From positions 1,674,001-1,738,000 of the forward strand of contig NZ_CP045119.1 of the NCBI RefSeq assembly GCF_011492945.1: a DNA stretch of 64,000 bases, given 5' to 3'. This DNA comes from Rubrobacter tropicus (GTDB taxonomy: Bacteria > Actinomycetota > Rubrobacteria > Rubrobacterales > Rubrobacteraceae). The notes below the pieces were generated by a model. It saw only the letters and a program-made list of their open reading frames with translations. It had not been told where the DNA came from and did no database searches. This document shows, piece by piece, positions 28,402 through 38,314 of this stretch (position 1 is its first letter; each line of letters begins with the position of its first letter). The translations under genes and the position numbers were made by a program.

Positions 28402-29502
28402 ATGACGGACACGATGACCGAGAAGATAGTCTTTACCCGCGGCGTCCCGCCGCCCGAGGCTTTCCCGACGGAGCAGATGGGCGAGTGCTTCGACGCGGCG
28501 GTGCGCGGGGACGCTGCCACGGTGCTGCAATACGGCCAGCAGCGCGGGTACGCCCCTCTGAGGCGCCAGCTCGCCGAGGAGTACGGGGTCTCGGAGACGG
28601 AGATCCTGGTGGGCAACGGCTCGCTGCAGTTGCAGGACCTCGTCGCCTCGTACCTCTCCGGGCCAGGCACCGTGGTCTACACGGAGCAGCCGAGCTACGA
28701 CCGCGCGATCAAGACGTTCCGCAGGCGCGCCGCCCAGGCCATCGGCATCCCGCTCGAAGAAGACGGCATCAGCGTCGACCGCCTGGAGGCGGCGCTTGAA
28801 AGGGAGGTCCCGGCCTTCGTCTACCTCGTGCCGGACTTCCAGAACCCGGCGGGCGCGACGCTCTCCCTGGAGAAGCGGCGCAGGATCGTGGAGCTCGCCG
28901 TGGAGCACGACTTCTGGGTGATAGAGGACGTCCCGTACCGCAAGCTCCGCTACGAGGGCGAGGACCTGCCGCTGTTGCGCGAGATCGACGCCTCGCGGGT
29001 CATCACGATGAGCTCGTTCTCGAAGCTCCTCTCCCCAGGAATCCGGGTGGGGTTCATGATCGCGCCAGAACCCCTCATAGACGCGGTCACGGCCCTCGGC
29101 GAGGACACCTACCTCGCCCCGGTCCTGCCCACGCAGGCGGCCGTCGCCGAGTTCATGGGCCGCGGCCTGCTCGGGCCGAACATCGAGCGCCTCAAGGAGC
29201 TGTACACTCCTCGCTGGAAGACGATGTCCGACGCCGTCCGCCGCGAGCTACCCGACGCCCAGGCCTTTATCCCCGGCGGCGGCTTCTTCGTCAGCGTCAT
29301 GCTCCCCGAGGACGCCAACACGACGAACCTAGTCGGGCGCGGCAAAGACGCGGGCCTCGTGCTCACGCCGGGCGCCGCCTTCTTCGCCGACCCCGGGGAC
29401 GGCGAGGCCGTCCCCGGCGACCGCTTCGTCCGCCTCCCCTTCTGCGCCGTAACACCGGGGCAGATAGAAGAGGGAGTCAAAAGGCTCGCGAGCCTTTTGT
29501 AG
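28402..29502 (+). CDS. class I/II PLP-dependent aminotransferase
   Basis: This 366-residue fold type I PLP enzyme has YGQQRGYAPLRRQLAEEYG (cofactor-loop region), VPDFQNPAGATLS, and the PLP lysine in SSFSKLLSPGIRVGFM. The order and PDFQNPxG segment match the 2-aminoadipate/LysN and MocR-related aminotransferases. The substrate is not determined; aromatic or branched-chain amino acids and 2-aminoadipate are open. ATG at 28402 follows GAGAGGTTGACCCG. The stop TAG is part of the heptamer array that follows. Confidence 0.88.
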   Translation: MTDTMTEKIVFTRGVPPPEAFPTEQMGECFDAAVRGDAATVLQYGQQRGYAPLRRQLAEEYGVSETEILVGNGSLQLQDLVASYLSGPGTVVYTEQPSYDRAIKTFRRRAAQAIGIPLEEDGISVDRLEAALEREVPAFVYLVPDFQNPAGATLSLEKRRRIVELAVEHDFWVIEDVPYRKLRYEGEDLPLLREIDASRVITMSSFSKLLSPGIRVGFMIAPEPLIDAVTALGEDTYLAPVLPTQAAVAEFMGRGLLGPNIERLKELYTPRWKTMSDAVRRELPDAQAFIPGGGFFVSVMLPEDANTTNLVGRGKDAGLVLTPGAAFFADPGDGEAVPGDRFVRLPFCAVTPGQIEEGVKRLASLL

Positions 29503-29684
29503 CTGTCAGCTTTCAGCGGTCAGCTTCTCCCCTGACAGCAAAGTCTCGCCCGAAAGAGCGAAGCCGCGCGGCCCCGGACTCAATGGTCCGGGGCCGCTCC
29601 AGTCACGACGTTTGCGCTCTACTGCGGGTGCGTCCCAACGGTCAAAAGCTGATAGCTGACAGCTGATAGCTGATAGCTGACAGC
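29501..29684. repeat. heptamer arrays, inverted arms with an internal 12-bp hairpin
   Basis: A TCAGC arm (29501-29526) begins on the aminotransferase stop codon; a GCTGA arm (29646-29684) ends next to the 35-bp repeat. Between them GCGGCCCCGGAC (29568-29579) pairs perfectly with GTCCGGGGCCGC (29586-29597). The rest of the gap 29503-29827 is an AT-rich leader for the regulator gene. Confidence 0.85.
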
Positions 29685-29685
29685 G

Positions 29686-29720
29686 CAGGTAGGGGCTTTG
29701 CCCCTACCCTGGACTTTGGC
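29686..29720 (+). repeat. 35-bp repeat, left copy
   Basis: This sequence contains a nine-base perfect hairpin (GGTAGGGGC with GCCCCTACC, loop TTT). The identical 35 bases occur in reverse orientation at 33380-33414. The pair brackets the regulator, transporter and transposase genes. Confidence 0.9.
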
Positions 29721-29827
29721 GCTTCTTATGGTTGTTGCAGGATTTGGACAACTCCCAGTTAAGTTGTTGCGACGAACGTAATCGGCTCCTTCTTGACTTT
29801 TGATTTGTTTTTGCGAAACATATCGTT

Positions 29828-30430
29828 ATGACTGAACAAAGCGGTTTTCCGGATTACGAGATGGAGGAATACTTCGAGGCGACGGAGCCCGAGCACCACA
29901 AGGCGTTCGCGGACCCCACCAGGCAGCGGGTCGTTAACCTGCTCTACGAGAGGGCGGCGACGACCAAGCAGCTCGCCGGGGCGCTCGGGCAGAGCCCCGG
30001 GAGGATGGCGCACCACCTGAAGGTCTTGGAAGGAGTGGGGCTCGTGCGGGTGGTCCGCACGCGGCAGGTCAGGGCCATAACCGAAAAGTATTACGGCAAC
30101 ACCTACCGCAGGGTGAACTTCACGGCCAGGGGGTTCTCGTGGCGGGAGAATCTGCCCGAGCTAGAGCCCTTCTTCTTGCTCCGGCAGGCGATCGACGAGT
30201 ACGACCGCTCGGCACTGGAGGTAGAGAGGCGGCCGGGCGCCGTAGCCCCTATGTCGCTCGTAGAGCACGCCCGCGTGCCGGCCTCACGCGCCGACGAGTT
30301 CGCCGCGAAGGTCCTGGAGCTCGCCAAGGAGTTCGAGTCGGACCCGGTGCCAGGAGAGCGCGTGTGGGGCTTCGTGGCGGCCGTCTACCCGACCGACCTG
30401 CCCGAGCTCCCCGAAGACGCCGACGCCTAA
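29828..30430 (+). CDS. ArsR-family winged-helix regulator
   Basis: The 200-residue DNA-binding protein has EPEHHKAFADPTRQRVVNLLYERAATTKQLAGALGQSPGRMAHHLKVLEGVGLVRVVRTRQVR at about 21 to 83: a winged helix of the ArsR/SmtB type, with no clear Cys metal site. A C-terminal 110-residue segment (from AITEKYYGNTYRRV) is present in related regulators and may bind a ligand. The leader is AT-rich, with TTTTTGCGAAACATATCG ahead of ATG at 29828. The MFS gene follows 12 bases on, so it probably controls that transporter. Confidence 0.85.
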   Translation: MTEQSGFPDYEMEEYFEATEPEHHKAFADPTRQRVVNLLYERAATTKQLAGALGQSPGRMAHHLKVLEGVGLVRVVRTRQVRAITEKYYGNTYRRVNFTARGFSWRENLPELEPFFLLRQAIDEYDRSALEVERRPGAVAPMSLVEHARVPASRADEFAAKVLELAKEFESDPVPGERVWGFVAAVYPTDLPELPEDADA

Positions 30431-30442
30431 GGTTGCGGGCCT

Positions 30443-31800
30443 GTGAGCGACACCAGACCCGACGTGCAAGGGAGCGCGCGGCGACTGCCGATGCTCGCGC
30501 TGATCGGCGCGAACGGCGTTTCCTGGATGGGGAACATGGCTGCCCTGGTCGTCGTACCCTGGTTCGTGCTGGAGGTCACCGGGAGCGCGGCCAAGACCGG
30601 CCTCGTGGGCGCCACGCTTGGGGTAGGCACGGTCCTCTCCGGCGTCTTCGCCGGCCCCATGGTGGACCGCCTCGGGCACAGGAGGATGAGCGTCCTGGCG
30701 GACCTCGCGAGCGGCGTGACGACCGCCGCCGTGCCGTTGCTCTACCTGGCCGACGCCCTGGAATTCTGGGCGCTCCTGGCGTTGGTTTTCCTGGGCGCGG
30801 TCCTCGATGCGCCGGGCAACGCGGCGCGTGCCGCCATGGTGCCTGGCCTGGCGCGCCACGCCGGGATGCCGCTGGAGAGGGCCAACTCGGCCTTCGGGGC
30901 GGTGCCGCGTCTCGCCCTGCTCGTCGGCACCCCGGCGGCCGGGGCCGCCATCGCCGCGTTCGGGGCGACCACCGTGCTGCTCGCCAACGCCGCCACCTTC
31001 GCCGTCTCCGCGGCCCTGGTGGCGCTGCTCGTGTCCCCGACCGAGGACCGTGCCGAAGCGATCCCCGGAGCGCGGGATGCGACTTCGGGAATGCGCGCGA
31101 CCGGTGTCGCGGGGTACTTCGCCGACCTGGCAGAGGGTGCGAGGTTCGTGGCGAAGAGCCGGACGGTACTCTCCTTGGTGCTCGTGGTGACCTTCGTAAA
31201 CACGATCGACGACCCGTTCGTCTCCGTGGTGCTACCGGTCTACGCCAAGACCCAGTGGGGGAGCGCCGTGGGCCTGGGCCTCCTCTTCGGAGCAGGCGGG
31301 GCGGGGGCGCTCGCGGGAACGGCGGTGTTCGGGGCGGTGGGCCACCGCCTGCCGAGGAGGAGCGCCTTCGCGATCGGCATCCTCGCCGGCGCGGGGATCG
31401 AGTACGCGGTGCTGCTGGTCTCGCCCTCTCTGGCCGTGGCCTTCGCCGCCTTCGTGCTCGGGGGGTTCCTCTTCGGGCCGATCGACCCGATCTTCTCGAC
31501 GGTCCTGCAGGAGCGCACCCGAAAGAGATGCTGGGAAGGCTGTTCGGCCTGAGCACGGCGCTGGCGACGGCTGGCGCCCCGCTCGGGCTTGCCGTAGGCG
31601 GCTTCCTGGTCGAAGGCGTAGGTCTGCGGGCGACCATCGCCGGGATGGCGGCGGCCTCGGCGGCGGTGGCCCTCTGGATGTGGCTCGATCCCGCCCTGCG
31701 CGGCATGGACGCCCCGGCGAGAGTAGGCGCCGACCGGCCGCGGGAGGAGGGCCCCGTGGTCGCGGCGGACTCCGCGAGGGGCCCGCGCGAGGAAGACTGA
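30443..31800 (+). pseudogene. MFS transporter, one-base frameshift near the end
   Basis: With one base restored the product is 452 residues, typical for 12-helix drug efflux proteins of the major facilitator superfamily. The first part reads NGVSWMGNMAALVVVPWFVLEV and has MVDRLGHRRMSVLADLASG, the loop 2-3 signature. At 31518-31520, ERT is followed by CCC where CCCC restores the conserved PKEMLGRLFGLSTALATAGAPLG in the second frame, which runs to 31800. As written the last helices are lost. The ArsR-type gene upstream suggests an inducible exporter. The indel again falls in a C run. Confidence 0.8.
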
Positions 31801-31812
31801 CCGCCTGCCGGC

Positions 31813-33360
31813 TAGGACGCGAGAGCCCTGCCCCGACCAAGGAGGATAGGAGCCATGCCCAGGAATGCCGCCGTCCCCGCCGAGCCGTCGTCGTCGCCTC
31901 CGCTTCTCGGGTCGCTCCTGCGCTTGCTCGCCGCGCATCGTCCCGCATTCCGCCAGGAGCGCACCTTCCGCAGGATGCAAGCCTTGCTCTTGGGATGTCT
32001 CTTCTCCTTCGCCAGGCGCACCGTCACCCAGGCGCTCGTCACATTGGGGCTTACGGACCACGACTGGAGCGCCTTCTACCGCCTCTTCAACGAGCCCCGC
32101 CTCGACTACGAGGTCCTCACCGGCTGCTTCTTTCGGAAGACGTTGGAGCACCTCCCGGAAGAGCGGCCCTGCGTGGCGGTGGTCGACGGCGTCCAGGTCC
32201 CGCGCCACTCCCACAAGATGCCGGGCACCTCGTGGCTCAAGCACCCGAAGACCCCGCCTTTCATGCCCGGACCCCATCGAGCCCAGCGCTTCCTGCACCT
32301 GGCGGCGCTCCTGCCTCGGAGCGCCGAAGGGTACACGCGAGCGCTGCCGCTCAGGTGGGAGCCGGCCTTCCCGGAGAAGGCGGTCCTTCCCGATGGAACC
32401 GATCCGCGCAAGCAGTGGGAGCCGGCGGTCCTGGCCGTCCGGTGGCTCAGGGCGCGCCTCGACGAAGCCGGCCGCGCCTCGCAGCGGCTCCTGGTCCTGG
32501 GCGACGGCGACTTCTCGGTCGCCAAGATGAGGGCGCTTCTACCGGAGGGCGTCGTGCTGATGACCCGCTTCGCCCGAAACCGGATCCTCCGGGAGCTGCC
32601 CGTTCCTGAGACGGTGGTCCGCAGGGGCAGGCCGCGATTCTACGGACCGAGGGCGAGGAAGCCGCACGAGTGGCTCGGGGAGCGTTCTGGGTGGCGCCGG
32701 GCACGCCTGCGTGTGCGCGGTAGGACGGTCTCCCCGCGCTACCGCGTCGAGGGGCCGTTCTTGCTGGAGCGTGCCCCGGGGCGACCGGTGTTCCTGGTCG
32801 TGGTGAAGGGGGTGCAGCGGGCCTCCGGGCGGGGCCGCCGGGCGAGGAGGGACCCCGCGTTCTGGATCGTCTCGGCGGTCCGGGATTGCGAAGGATGGCG
32901 CCTGCCCTTCTCGGCGGCGGAGCTGCTGTCGTGGGCGTGGCAGAGGTGGGAGGTTGAAGTTTCGCACCGCGAGATGAAAACCGGCTTTGGGCTCGGGGAG
33001 ATCCAATGCTGGAGCAAGGAGGCCGCCGTCCTGGCGGTGCAGTGGCAGGCTTGGGCCTACGGGGTACTGGTGCTCGCCGGTTACCGCGCCTGGGGCATGG
33101 GCCTCGGGCCGATCCGTCCGCCGGGCAGGTGGTGGAACGGCTCGGGGAGGTGGTCGCTGGGCTCCCTATGGCGGGGCTACCACTACGAGCTGTGGGGGAC
33201 GGAGGAATTTAGACCGATCTTCGCGGCGACCGGGGACGGGTGGCCCGAAAAAGAGGCGCTGTTGGCGGGGATGGGAAACGCGGTGAACGGTTCGCTGCGC
33301 GGATAGCCGTTCGCGTGCGCTTGCGCGCCCGGATGGGTCGGTGGGAGACCGCCCGTCCGG
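31813..33360 (+). mobile_element. possible insertion sequence, ends tentative
   Basis: Outside the transposase gene, 31813-31838 and the reverse complement of 33336-33360 share a GGACG core and end in CCGACC (about 18 of 26 positions alike), which may be imperfect terminal inverted repeats. No target duplication is evident, so these ends are a guess. The gene itself is intact. Confidence 0.35.
31855..33306 (+). CDS. DDE transposase, IS4-superfamily type
   Basis: The 483-residue protein has three acidic regions in the order of DDE transposases: VAVVDGVQVPRHS (near residue 110), VLGDGDFSVAKM (near 215) and WEVEVSHREMKTGFGLGE (near 370), the last with the R-x-x-x-E/K spacing of the IS4-type YREK motif (Y replaced by H/S). 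An RNase H-like fold with beta-rich insertion is expected. The reading frame is complete, so the element could be active. ATG at 31855 has AAGGAGG upstream. The intergenic 55 bases separate it from the MFS frame. It is a single copy in this window. Confidence 0.85.
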   Translation: MPRNAAVPAEPSSSPPLLGSLLRLLAAHRPAFRQERTFRRMQALLLGCLFSFARRTVTQALVTLGLTDHDWSAFYRLFNEPRLDYEVLTGCFFRKTLEHLPEERPCVAVVDGVQVPRHSHKMPGTSWLKHPKTPPFMPGPHRAQRFLHLAALLPRSAEGYTRALPLRWEPAFPEKAVLPDGTDPRKQWEPAVLAVRWLRARLDEAGRASQRLLVLGDGDFSVAKMRALLPEGVVLMTRFARNRILRELPVPETVVRRGRPRFYGPRARKPHEWLGERSGWRRARLRVRGRTVSPRYRVEGPFLLERAPGRPVFLVVVKGVQRASGRGRRARRDPAFWIVSAVRDCEGWRLPFSAAELLSWAWQRWEVEVSHREMKTGFGLGEIQCWSKEAAVLAVQWQAWAYGVLVLAGYRAWGMGLGPIRPPGRWWNGSGRWSLGSLWRGYHYELWGTEEFRPIFAATGDGWPEKEALLAGMGNAVNGSLRG

Positions 33361-33379
33361 ACTACCGCTGCTGAGAAAT

Positions 33380-33414
33380 GCCAAAGTCCAGGGTAGGGGC
33401 AAAGCCCCTACCTG
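33380..33414 (-). repeat. 35-bp repeat, right copy (inverted)
   Basis: Exact reverse complement of 29686-29720. Its last bases overlap the last codon and TAG stop of the M36 peptidase gene, so the GGTAGGGGC hairpin forms right at that gene's end and may serve as terminator. Confidence 0.9.
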
Positions 33415-36400
33415 CTAAACACTTGCAGTTCGGCGGCGCGGACCACTTCGTCCTCGTCGGAGCCGCGGGTGCAGTCCGAGTCGTTGGCCGGGTCGGCGTC
33501 GGGGTCGCCCTGGTAGATGGCGGCGCCGGTGCACTGGTTGGAGATGACGCGGAGCTGGACATGGGTGGCGGTGGTGTCGCGGACGTCGAAGCCGGCGAGT
33601 TGGAGGTCGGGGGCCGTCGGGCGGGGCTGGCCCGCCGAGGCCGGGCCGGTCTCGGCGCTGGCCGGGCTGGTGAAGACGCCCGTGAAGCCGCGCGTCGGGT
33701 TCGAGCAGTCGTTCGACGCACTCGCGGTGCAGGTCAGGATCCGGAACTGCCTGAGCGCCGAGAAGCGGCTCTGGGTGTCCGTGTCGCCGAACTTGTCGCC
33801 CTCCTCCTGGGGCCTGAGCAAGGCGCTGACCTGGACCCTGTCGACGAGCTGGGCGCCGCCGGCGAGGTTGACGGTTACCTGCTTGCCCCTGACGGGGCCG
33901 TTGGCCCGCCAGTTGGTGGCCTCCGTCTCGTCGAGAAGCCGGGTGGCGGAGGCGCCGCCCGTTCCCGCTGTGCCGTCGCTCGTGGCCGTGGGCCGCGCGC
34001 CCCTCGCCGAGGAGGCCAGGTTCGCCTGCATCTGGATCGTCCTGGTCCCGGTATCGCCGGAGGCGAACGTCTGCCGCGCGCGCTGGAGGCCGAAGCCGGG
34101 GGCGCGGACGAAGAGGTCGTAGGAGCCGGGGGCGATGGTTGCCGAGCGGGTCAGCGGGGTGGTCGTGCGGCCGTCCGCGACGGGGACCGCGCGCGCCTCG
34201 TAGCGGCCGACGAAGACCTCGAAGTTGGTGATCTCGGCGCCCGTGGGGCCGACGGCGCGGAAGGTTACCTCCGCGTTGTTCTCCCGCGGGGAGGCGAAGC
34301 TGGGCGTCGGGTCGCGGTCGTCTGAACCTTCGCTCTTGGCGCCGATGCCCATGCCGCCGCGGGCGAAGCCGAGCCAGAGTTCTTTCTGGTTGGCGCCGCC
34401 GAAGCGCATCCTGTCAGCGGCGAGGTAGGCGTCGCGGGCGTCGAGGAAGCTTACCGAGGACTGCTGAAGGAGGAAGGCGTCGTGGAAGATCTGGGCCCAC
34501 CTGCGGTTGCCCGGGCAGTCGAGCGCAGAAGTCTCCCCGTCGGCGCACCGCTTTTGCAGGTCCGTGCCAGACCCCGAGGGGTACTGGGCGTCGTACTTGT
34601 TCATGAGAAGCTCGCGGATATCGAAGTTGACGGCCGACCAGATCTCACCGTCCGCGTGCGGGCTTGTTACGCCGTTCGGGTCGTACTCGATGTCCGAGTA
34701 GTTCAGGGGGCTCGCGTTCATGCCGTAGTTGCGGATGCCGGACTGCTTGTCGCCCGTAACGTACGGACCCACCGCGTACCGGTTCTCGCCGTCGGTCGGG
34801 TTGTAGCCGTACTCGTACAGGTACTCTATGGCCGTGAGGTCCGACCAACTCTCGCCCATCGAACGGGCCTGCAGGCCCGAGAGGCCCTGGTCCGGGCCGG
34901 CGACCATGCGGTTTTGGATCGCGTGCCCGTACTCGTGGGCTATCACCGAGACGTCGTAGTCGCCGTCGACGCACGGGGCGTAGAACGCGCCCGCTATCGG
35001 CTGCCAGAGGTACATGTTGGTTATGGGTGCTATGCCGTCGTTTAGCGTGATCTGGTTGGCGTTGTCCCGCCCGAGGTAGCTCGGCGCCCCGCCGTTGACG
35101 GCGCCGGCCTGCACGTCGCCGATTTCGGGGTCGTTCTCCCTTTCGGGCGGCGTCAGGCCGAAGTTGTTGTCCTGCAGGTTGTAGGCCTGCTCGGTGAAAC
35201 CGAGGTTGTAAGACCAGTCGTGGATGCGGTTGTGGGTGGCGAACAGCGCCGCCGTGGCCGCCGAGATGTCGTTGCCCTCGCCAGGGACGGCGAGCTCGGT
35301 CGGCGAGCAACCCTTGCCGGGGTCGGCCGGGTTGGTCGACTCGTACCAGGCGTTGGTCCAGGGGTATTCGTACTCGCGCGTGGCGCTCGTCGGCCTGAAG
35401 CCGGTCGGGCCCGGCGAGAACGGCCCGTACCAGGACTCGGCCGAGCGCGCGTTGTTGCCTATCGTCGTAAACGTCGGCGGGTTGCCCGCCGCCTTGGTGT
35501 TCACGTCCCAGGGCGCCCGCGAGGCCTGGTTTGCGACGTCGAGGGCGCAGCCGGCGGGGGCCGCGTCGCCGTAGACGAGGGTGTTCCAGCAGATCACGTC
35601 CCGGGTGTCAGTGGAAGGGTAGCTGCCGATGGTGGCCCCGATCGGCGGGTTGGCGAAGAACTGGTCCCACTCCGGAGGGTAGGGCACGCCGTCCGGCGGA
35701 TCCGCGGCGTCGTTGGCGAGGAAGAAGCCCGTGTAGGTGTTCGGCGGGAGCGGGGCCGCGTTCTGGAAGCTGCAGACCCGCACGAAGTAGTCTCCCGGCG
35801 GCACGCCGCCCTCGGGCTCGTAGAGGATGCTCTCGGGCGTCGTTATGACGTCGCCTTCGGCCACGACCACGCCGCCAAACACGAGCTGGAGCACGATGTC
35901 GTTGGCCGGGTTCGTCGCGTTGGCGCTCACCGCGACCTGCCCCGTGCCCTCGGCGACGGTGAACGGGCCGTTCTGCGGCGCCTCGTCGCAGGAGGTGGCG
36001 CTGAAGGTGCCCTGGAAGGGTTGGGAGTTCGGCGGCTCTGGCACGGCCGGCGGCTCGACCTGGGCGTACTCGATGCCCGTGTCTTCGGCGAGCTGCTGGA
36101 CGTTGTTCGTCCTTACGAGCACCTTGCCGGTGTTGGCGTCGACGAAGCTGGTGAAGGATTTCGCCTCGTTGCCGCTGTCTTCGATCAGGATCGCCTCGTA
36201 GGCCGGCCGCACGCCGCCCTCTGGCGTCGGAACGGCCGTGAGGCGGACCTGCTGCTCCTGCGAGAGCCCGTCCACGCGCAGCTGCGTGAAGTCGCTGCGC
36301 AGGCCATCGCCGTCCTTCAGACGGTCGGCCGTCGCGCTCTCTATGTCCGCGGGGACGACGCTCTCGCCGACGTCCCGGGCCGCCGTCACCCAGGCCTCCT

Positions 36401-37010
36401 TGCCCGTGAGACCCGTGGAGGTCGTTGCGAGGCCCGTGTTCTTCGAGAGCGATGAGGAGACGTAGGCCACGTCCCAGCTGCCGCCAGACCCGGTGAGGCC
36501 GACCAGCACGGAGCCGTCGGTCACCGCGGGCAGGTCGCCGAACTGCTGGCGAAAGAGCACGACGTGGCCGTCGGAGCCCTCCATCGGGGTCTCGTTCTCG
36601 AACTTCAGCCGGGCGTCGTCGCGCAGGTAGTCCGCGGAGAGGCCGAAGACCGCCGCGTTGTTCGCGAGGAAGGCGCGGGCCGCGGCCCTGGCGTCGTCGC
36701 CCTGCACGTCTTTGGCGAGGAAGCCGTCGTAACGGATCAGGGACCGCGGCGTGCCGAACTGGTTCCAGCGGGCCGTCGCGCCGAGGTCGGAGACGGCGCC
36801 GCGCTGGGCCGCGGTCGCGCTCACGCTGCCCGTCCTGAAGTCCCGGTCGGGCTCGTGGTCGTGCAGCTCCTCGATGTTTCCCACTGCGCCCGCCGAACGG
36901 GGTCCGAGCACCTCTAGAGCGAGGAGCGCCGCCGCCAACACCACCATGAGAAATACGGCCTTCGCCGTGCGTCCGGTCGGCACTCCGCCGTTCGCCCCTT
37001 CTCCAGACAT
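33408..37010 (-). CDS. secreted M36 (fungalysin-type) metallopeptidase with C-terminal carbohydrate-binding-like domain
   Basis: A 1200-residue exoenzyme. The signal peptide (FLMVVLAAALLALEVLG, about 18 to 38) is followed by an FTP propeptide (about 60 to 280), a beta-rich insert, and the M36 peptidase with HEYGH zinc site (His692, His696, catalytic Glu693) and third ligand Glu720 in RSMGESWSDL. After the peptidase come a carboxypeptidase-regulatory-like beta domain (about 950 to 1020) and a discoidin-like C-terminal domain (about 1030 to 1190). It would be secreted and autoprocessed. ATG at 37010 is preferred; upstream extension shares no signal-peptide logic. The peptidase target is unknown. 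Confidence 0.9.
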   Translation of the reverse strand: MSGEGANGGVPTGRTAKAVFLMVVLAAALLALEVLGPRSAGAVGNIEELHDHEPDRDFRTGSVSATAAQRGAVSDLGATARWNQFGTPRSLIRYDGFLAKDVQGDDARAAARAFLANNAAVFGLSADYLRDDARLKFENETPMEGSDGHVVLFRQQFGDLPAVTDGSVLVGLTGSGGSWDVAYVSSSLSKNTGLATTSTGLTGKEAWVTAARDVGESVVPADIESATADRLKDGDGLRSDFTQLRVDGLSQEQQVRLTAVPTPEGGVRPAYEAILIEDSGNEAKSFTSFVDANTGKVLVRTNNVQQLAEDTGIEYAQVEPPAVPEPPNSQPFQGTFSATSCDEAPQNGPFTVAEGTGQVAVSANATNPANDIVLQLVFGGVVVAEGDVITTPESILYEPEGGVPPGDYFVRVCSFQNAAPLPPNTYTGFFLANDAADPPDGVPYPPEWDQFFANPPIGATIGSYPSTDTRDVICWNTLVYGDAAPAGCALDVANQASRAPWDVNTKAAGNPPTFTTIGNNARSAESWYGPFSPGPTGFRPTSATREYEYPWTNAWYESTNPADPGKGCSPTELAVPGEGNDISAATAALFATHNRIHDWSYNLGFTEQAYNLQDNNFGLTPPERENDPEIGDVQAGAVNGGAPSYLGRDNANQITLNDGIAPITNMYLWQPIAGAFYAPCVDGDYDVSVIAHEYGHAIQNRMVAGPDQGLSGLQARSMGESWSDLTAIEYLYEYGYNPTDGENRYAVGPYVTGDKQSGIRNYGMNASPLNYSDIEYDPNGVTSPHADGEIWSAVNFDIRELLMNKYDAQYPSGSGTDLQKRCADGETSALDCPGNRRWAQIFHDAFLLQQSSVSFLDARDAYLAADRMRFGGANQKELWLGFARGGMGIGAKSEGSDDRDPTPSFASPRENNAEVTFRAVGPTGAEITNFEVFVGRYEARAVPVADGRTTTPLTRSATIAPGSYDLFVRAPGFGLQRARQTFASGDTGTRTIQMQANLASSARGARPTATSDGTAGTGGASATRLLDETEATNWRANGPVRGKQVTVNLAGGAQLVDRVQVSALLRPQEEGDKFGDTDTQSRFSALRQFRILTCTASASNDCSNPTRGFTGVFTSPASAETGPASAGQPRPTAPDLQLAGFDVRDTTATHVQLRVISNQCTGAAIYQGDPDADPANDSDCTRGSDEDEVVRAAELQVFSR

Positions 37011-37261
37011 TGTCCCCCGTCCCGTTCGGTTCCCGGCACGAACCCTCTTCCGCGCTTCAGACGCGCTTGCCCGGGATAGAATCTTGCCCGGGGCCCCTAC
37101 GGCGCACGCGGGGGTTTGTGCGTTGCAGTTCGAGCAGCATACAGGGATGGCGATCCCCGCGCCAGGGGCGGCGCGGAACCTTCTCCAGCGTACCAAGGAT
37201 CGGGGGTTTGGGCGCCGATTTTCTCTCTGGTTTGGGGCCGATGCGTGCGTACACTCGGTCA

Positions 37262-38314
37262 GTGGCGAAGAAGATGACCGGCGCGGCCGACCAGAAAACA
37301 GATCAGACAAAGAATGCGACGGTGCGCAAGACGCTGATCTCCTGGTTCCGGGAGAACGGGCGGGACCTGCCTTGGCGCCGCACGCGGGACCCGTGGCGCA
37401 TCCTGGTCTCCGAGGTGATGCTGCAGCAGATCCAGGTGGCGCGCGCGATCCCCTTCTACGAGCGTTTCACAGAACGCTTCCCGACGGTCGACGCGCTCGC
37501 GACGGCGCCGCTCGCGGAGGCGATCCGGGCCTGGGGCGACCTCGGCCGCTACCGGCGGGTGGTGAACCTCCACAGGACGGCCCGCATCGTCGTCGAGGAG
37601 CACGAGGGCCGGATACCCGCGGACCCGGAGGTGCTCGTCACCCTGCCCGGCATCGGGCCCTACACGGCTGGCGCGGTCGCCTGCTTCGCCTTCGAGCGGG
37701 ACGTGCCCTTCTTCGACACGAACATGCATCGGGTGCTCCACCGCGTGTACTTCGGCCCCGAGGTGCCGGAGCCGGCGGCGAAGAGGAAGGAACTGCTGGC
37801 GCTCGCCGCGGGACTCGTGCCCGTGGGGGACGGCTGGGCCTGGAACCAGGCGGTGATGGAGTTCGGCGCGTTGCACTGCACGGCGCGCAGACCCCGCTGC
37901 GAGGAGTGCCCGGTCTCGGGCCATTGCAGCGCCCATCCCGGGATGCCCGGGGCCCTGGCCGCCGCGCCGCGCGCGCCGAAGCGGGAGCCGGCCGACAGGT
38001 ACGAAGACTCCAACCGCTACCTGCGGGGCAGGGTGCTGGCCCAACTTCGCGAAGCCCGCGCGGCGGACGGCCTCGAGCTGCGGGATATCCAGAGCCGGCT
38101 GCGCCGCGACGAGACCGAGGTCGGGCTGCCCCGCCTCCGGGGCGCGGTGCGCAGCCTGGAAGACGACGGGCTCGCCTGCACCGTGCCCGCGAGAGATTCG
38201 GACGACAGTTCCCCGGGGCGGGCCGTGGCCGAAGAGCGGGCCGCCTACGACGCTAGACCGCCCGGCGGCGCGGGGGGCGAAGGCCTGGCCGGGATACGGG
38301 TTACGCTGCCGTGA
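37262..38314 (+). CDS. mutY: A/G-specific adenine glycosylase
   Basis: Removes adenine opposite 8-oxoguanine, preventing GC-to-TA mutation. The 350-residue protein has the family's catalytic segment VSEVMLQQIQVARAIPFYERF (acid in SEVMLQQ), the HhH LPGIGPYTAGAVACFAF, catalytic Asp in FFDTNMHRVLHRV and the [4Fe-4S] pattern C-x6-C-x2-C-x5-C (CTARRPRCEECPVSGHC). The NUDIX-like 8-oxoG-recognition domain is missing; the C-terminal 100 residues are basic and unlike it. GTG at 37262 is chosen because TACACT at 37250-37255 would start a leaderless transcript there; ATG at 37241 or 37274 are alternatives. Confidence 0.88.
   Translation: MAKKMTGAADQKTDQTKNATVRKTLISWFRENGRDLPWRRTRDPWRILVSEVMLQQIQVARAIPFYERFTERFPTVDALATAPLAEAIRAWGDLGRYRRVVNLHRTARIVVEEHEGRIPADPEVLVTLPGIGPYTAGAVACFAFERDVPFFDTNMHRVLHRVYFGPEVPEPAAKRKELLALAAGLVPVGDGWAWNQAVMEFGALHCTARRPRCEECPVSGHCSAHPGMPGALAAAPRAPKREPADRYEDSNRYLRGRVLAQLREARAADGLELRDIQSRLRRDETEVGLPRLRGAVRSLEDDGLACTVPARDSDDSSPGRAVAEERAAYDARPPGGAGGEGLAGIRVTLP

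Follow-up and report, generated by a model that had tools for sequence, protein, structure and literature searches.

An ArsR regulator gene, an MFS efflux gene and a transposase gene of Rubrobacter tropicus lie between two inverted copies of a 36-bp sequence. Very probably, this block is a 3.7-kb IS701-like (DDE_5) insertion sequence with two passenger genes, arsR and MFS, whose target, a 27-bp palindrome located between convergent genes of the host, was duplicated on insertion. The element and its relatives in other bacteria appear to choose their landing sites by the shape of the DNA and not by its letters. They probably form a distinct IS701-like lineage, in which targets would be chosen purely by structure and the entire palindrome (20–46 bp, a length set by the target) would be duplicated via strand transfer at a cruciform's 5' feet. 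The window, i.e. the whole stretch of DNA that was analysed, comprises 64,000 nucleotides (contig NZ_CP045119.1, 1,674,001–1,738,000). Positions refer to the window unless the host genome is named, and L and G numbers are our labels for loci and genomes.

Composition of the inverted repeat

The features of the region are listed in Table 1. According to the sequence comparison within the window, the inverted repeat is an exact reverse complement over 36 bp (29685–29720 and 33380–33415). When it is extended to 29685–29726 and 33374–33415, 40 of the 42 bp (95%) are complementary. The first-pass annotation had described perfect reverse complements of 35 bases, each containing a nine-base hairpin with a TTT loop. 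The exact complementarity holds and the length is one base greater; the hairpin is confirmed, with a 9-bp stem and a TTT (or AAA) loop in each copy. For the 19-bp hairpin core, 0.03 occurrences per window are expected by chance. A genome-wide search for the 36-mer (4.58 Mb, two contigs), in which up to 3 mismatches were allowed, detected two copies, both at this block. The sequence CTGGAGTTTGGC at 1994283 and 3956720 of the host genome was rejected, as both places have a protein-coding look and no element is there.

As the transposase is single-copy in the genome, the ends of the element had to be read from its relatives. On this comparison, the 36-mer is read as a composite in which 3 outer bp stem from the original target, the next 21 bp form a hairpin and the inner 12 bp are the terminal inverted repeat CTGGACTTTGGC. 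The true element end within the 36-mer would be only 12 bp (about 18 bp with mismatches), and the remainder would be the duplicated target palindrome. When the window flanks are joined without the element, a palindrome of 27 bp results (arms of 12 bp, GCAGGTAGGGGC-TTT-GCCCCTACCTGC), and we infer that this was the original target. The perfect 36-bp inverted repeat is then best explained by a flipped loop in what was a near-direct repeat. With its loop inverted, the duplication in the window is not an exact direct repeat, and this was counted against our explanation. Directly left of the insertion, repeats of the AGCTGATAGCTGACAGC type are present in tandem and inverted arrangement (29501–29525 and 29647–29684).

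Table 1. Features of the insertion and its surroundings (window positions; target assignments are those proposed in the text)
Feature	Position	Strand	Evidence and remarks
Aminotransferase gene, host, left neighbour of the insertion	28402–29502	+	Pfam Aminotran_1_2; adjoins the M36 gene without insert in same-genus genome G004
Outer 3 bp (GCA) of proposed original 27-bp target palindrome, left	29685–29687		Pairs with TGC 33413–33415; GCAGGTA kept at uninserted G004 site
Left copy of putative duplicated target palindrome, GGTAGGGGC-TTT-GCCCCTACC	29688–29708		9-bp arms; 0 bp from terminal repeat; differs from right copy only by inverted loop
Left terminal inverted repeat CTGGACTTTGGC	29709–29720	+	Motif common to ends of homologous elements; imperfect match up to 29726
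ArsR-family regulator, passenger, 200 aa	29828–30430	+	Pfam HTH_20, HTH_5; 69% identical homologue beside MFS gene in L076
MFS efflux transporter, passenger, frameshifted	30443–31800	+	Pfam MFS_1, E 6e-25; frames read from sequence
IS701-like DDE_5 transposase, 483 aa	31855–33306	+	Pfam DDE_5, E 2.6e-17; NF049999 below cut-off; single copy in genome
Right terminal inverted repeat, GCCAAAGTCCAG on + strand	33380–33391	-	Repeat comparison
Right copy of putative duplicated target palindrome, loop AAA	33392–33412		Hairpin reading at ends
M36 peptidase gene, host	33408–37310	-	Pfam Peptidase_M36; stop codon within right palindrome copy
Outer 3 bp (TGC) of proposed original target palindrome, right	33413–33415		Sequence

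The element and its passenger genes

The element is 3,683 bp long (29709–33391). Its regulator, efflux transporter and transposase had been named correctly in the first-pass annotation, and Pfam assigns them to the ArsR, MFS and DDE_5 types; the frameshift of the MFS gene had been missed. This one-base frameshift is located near 31520, where the intact frame (30443–31552) gives way to a C-terminal part in another frame, and it is either decay or an assembly error. In the alignment of the transposase, D111, D217, E366 and E368 are invariant over 12 homologues and are putative catalytic residues. The AlphaFold model of the transposase, built from five sequences, has a mean pLDDT of 48.7, a quality too low for comparing folds. 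No match was found by sequence among solved structures, and no homologue among plasmid records. A composite transposon was ruled out, since the block has one transposase only.

The terminal repeats of a single element (29709 and 33391) enclose the arsR and MFS genes (29828–31800). As the target duplication brackets the full 3,683 bp, the two genes would most simply have arrived together with the transposase. In another Rubrobacteraceae genome (L076), ArsR (69%) and MFS (50%) form an adjacent pair without terminal repeats, and this chromosomal pair suggests that the cargo is probably a captured chromosomal efflux operon. The passenger promoter region has no useful similarity to that of L076. 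Cargo was not found in any other element seen, the full-length units being 1.57–1.66 kb.

It is also conceivable, and in our judgement rather unlikely, that the insertion sequence occupied this site first and that the arsR–MFS pair entered it later, without ever having been mobilised by the element. The sampled relatives without passengers, besides shorter deletion derivatives, and the chromosomal pair of L076 would both agree with such a late entry. On the other hand, the target duplication encloses the whole element, no second terminal repeat is present near the transposase, and the corresponding locus of G004 has neither the pair nor the transposase.

The uninserted site in a related genome

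In G004, a genome of the same genus with an M36 peptidase 80% identical to that of the window, the aminotransferase and M36 genes are adjacent and the block is missing. The first-pass annotation had proposed to look for such an empty site in relatives, and had suggested that the repeats mark an acquired block. The block indeed behaves as a single IS-type transposition unit absent from G004; the 36-mer is not the element end as such. The site in G004, GCAGGTA / CCCCTAC...AACACCTGCAGTTC, aligns with the joined window flanks, and the middle of the palindrome is missing. The palindrome at this uninserted site is not intact, which was weighed as a point against our explanation. One repeat copy had been seen to form the end of the M36 gene, and the stop codon does lie inside the right hairpin. 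Its position is the same in G004, which indicates that it is native.

Two further GTAGGGGC...GCCCCTAC palindromes are present in the host genome, at L024 (1563271) and L027 (1905633). They have no terminal repeat and no element, and are possible free targets.

Relatives and the hairpins at their ends

Homologous elements were detected in a Rubrobacteraceae MAG (L020, 65%) and in Chloroflexota and kin (L021–L023, L036–L041 and L081–L100). Element ends and hairpins were taken from a curated table, and L010–L019 were left out of the end reading as remote or fragmentary matches. In the relatives with readable ends, the terminal repeat matches CT(G/T)(G/A)A(C/G)TTTGGC exactly or with slight deviations, and is located about 150 bp or less from the transposase gene. 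Two elements of the same transposase subfamily, L036 and L039, end in the terminal repeat GCCAAAGTCGA and are not flanked by hairpins; they are perhaps a branch with a different target rule.

Directly outside the terminal repeat, 44 of the 48 readable ends have a hairpin, counted as such if its arm measured 8 bp or more and began no further than 3 bp from the repeat. Among random positions of these loci, the rate is 0.66%. The 48 sampled ends are not all independent, as seven copies come from one genome and several from another. The hairpin sequences, however, are unrelated from site to site, so that the pattern exceeds common descent. In genome G483, seven copies are found at seven different palindromes. 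Four copies in this genome are 99.4–100% identical to one another, and the similarity ends exactly at the terminal repeat. Uninserted counterparts of the G483 insertions were searched for within the family of G483, and none was found. The stretch beside the L096 insertion has dozens of dispersed matches of about 95 bp in G483 (L113–L121), which would represent another family of repeats.

Duplication of the palindrome

Nineteen elements were readable at both ends, and 18 remain when L036, which has no hairpins, is set aside. The same palindrome is present on both sides in 15 of these 18 two-hairpin elements. Exact direct repeats of 20–46 bp, consisting of the palindrome, were identified in 12 cases (L020, L037, L040, L082, L086, L090, L091, L093, L094, L096, L098 and L100), and in three (the window element, L089 and L095) the loop alone is inverted between the two sides. 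The palindromes on the two sides differ in the other three (L021, L041 and L083). These three elements, and likewise the lack of hairpins at L036 and L039, were entered against our explanation. The differing palindromes are assumed to have arisen by recombination between copies, by analogy with the imperfect direct repeats of ISRm22, for which recombination has been argued (PMC1525189). L041 and L095, both in genome G180, are deletion derivatives of 811 and 834 bp with palindromes still on both sides.

The elements L037 and L040 sit in a dispersed repeat of the Chloroflexota genome G180. A query made of the left flank, one palindrome and the right flank gave 47 matches in G180, most of them near the full query length. 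The matches that were read have one palindrome each, and the inserted copies have two. The dispersed repeat (L042–L071) is about 140 bp long with one central palindrome, and is partly in tandem at a spacing of about 286 bp. Among the uninserted copies, both loop orientations (ATG and CAT) occur in the same flank orientation. As these loops are polymorphic without insertion, inversion of such palindrome loops does take place, and it can explain TTT versus AAA in the window. We ascribe the occasional inverted loops (3 of 15) either to the processing of hairpins or to a flip at a later time.

Proposed mechanism and alternatives

As far as the comparison of sequences reaches, insertion is tied to palindromes of any sequence and to the duplication of the whole palindrome. 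This combination suggests that a cruciform is attacked at its feet. The target palindrome would be extruded as a cruciform, and strand transfer would occur at its 5' feet. Gap filling would then copy the hairpin on each side, so that the length of the target duplication equals that of the palindrome. A stem-loop-duplicating route was drawn in 2017 as a hypothetical alternative to the hairpin removal proposed for IS1272 (PMC5678879, Fig. 13, pathway b). As part of the same reading, the lineage of the window is a likely natural instance of that route.

Structure-directed insertion and hairpin duplication might also act on a single-stranded hairpin, e.g. on the lagging-strand template, in place of a cruciform. 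Hairpins form on single strands too, and the loop inversions fit hairpin processing. DDE transposases, however, normally use double-stranded DNA as the target to which both element ends are joined (PMC5678879), and both strands need joining in any case; a single-stranded target is judged unlikely. It is improbable that the elements were inserted between two pre-existing hairpins, as in paired, BIME-like palindromes, with no duplication at all. The hairpins of the window are inverted like paired palindromes, and three elements have unlike hairpins on their two sides, but the uninserted G180 copies have one palindrome, and exact direct repeats of otherwise unrelated palindromes, as in the 12 elements above, are rarely expected from pairs. 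Still less probable is that the entire 36–42 bp repeat belongs to the element itself and forms, together with its hairpin, a long terminal inverted repeat. Such terminal repeats bearing hairpins exist in some elements, and the window repeat is perfectly inverted and symmetric; yet the four nearly identical G483 copies have four unrelated hairpins beyond the terminal repeat, and the hairpin is already present in the uninserted G180 repeats. The other suggestion of the first-pass annotation, that the 36-mers are an ordinary terminator repeat in independent copies, with no connection to the transposase, would agree with hairpins located between genes or at gene ends, but it has practically no probability left, since 12 bp of each 36-mer are the terminal repeat of the element family and the many scattered copies expected of such a repeat are absent from the genome.

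Comparison with known systems

Like the IS701 family, the element has a DDE_5 domain, short terminal inverted repeats and, without cargo, a size of about 1.6 kb, and its transposase is related to that family over most of its length. The transposase scores 125.6 bits against NF049999 (cut-off 170) and 30.2 bits against NF033540 (cut-off 150), and the homologues are also below the cut-offs. By these scores, it is related to the IS701 family and is not a formal member. Short terminal repeats (12 bp in the window element) and a DDE transposase whose acidic residues are conserved, as judged from the sequence, are shared with IS701. The target duplication of IS701 members is reported as 4–5 bp, and as 4–9 bp in ISGka1/2 (PMC8024623), whereas the window family duplicates palindromes of 20–46 bp.

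IS1272, of the IS1182 family, targets stem-loops that vary in sequence and in size and often directly follow a gene, and it removes the stem-loop without leaving a target duplication (PMC5678879). Palindrome-targeting IS1182 members are mentioned by Siguier et al. without details (PMC5678879). The window family resembles IS1272 in using an inverted-repeat target whatever its sequence, with unrelated hairpins at 44 of 48 ends. In contrast to IS1272, the stem-loop is kept and duplicated, being present on both sides of the element and as one copy when uninserted, and the transposase is of a different family. ISPsy8, ISPa11, ISPpu9/10 and ISRm22 insert in REP sequences, where a specific sequence is broken at a fixed point with direct repeats of 0–6 bp (PMC1525189). 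Palindromic repeats are the target in both cases, but those of the window family are unrelated in sequence and are left whole. In the literature covered, which excluded ISfinder and most subscription papers, we found no IS701-like element with palindrome duplication. We also found no published example of whole-palindrome duplication beyond the hypothetical route in the IS1272 work.

Transporter IS (tIS) are IS elements with passenger genes. The window element is similar to them in its regulator and efflux genes, which are enclosed by the terminal repeats of an element with a single transposase. It differs in that the cargo form is known as one copy only, from sequence, and in that its MFS gene is frameshifted.

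Target duplications of IS elements are usually short, with a length set by the transposase. In the window family, the length is set by the palindrome of the target, which points to structure-directed recognition and duplication of the whole hairpin. Composites of a palindrome and a terminal repeat can mimic long inverted repeats, which is a warning for annotation. The mechanism behind the symmetry reaches well beyond the window. If the proposed mechanism is true, the family would be a natural counterpart to the hairpin-removing route of IS1272 and a marker for sites of cruciform or hairpin formation in living bacteria, and it would place cargo at intergenic hairpins without gene disruption.
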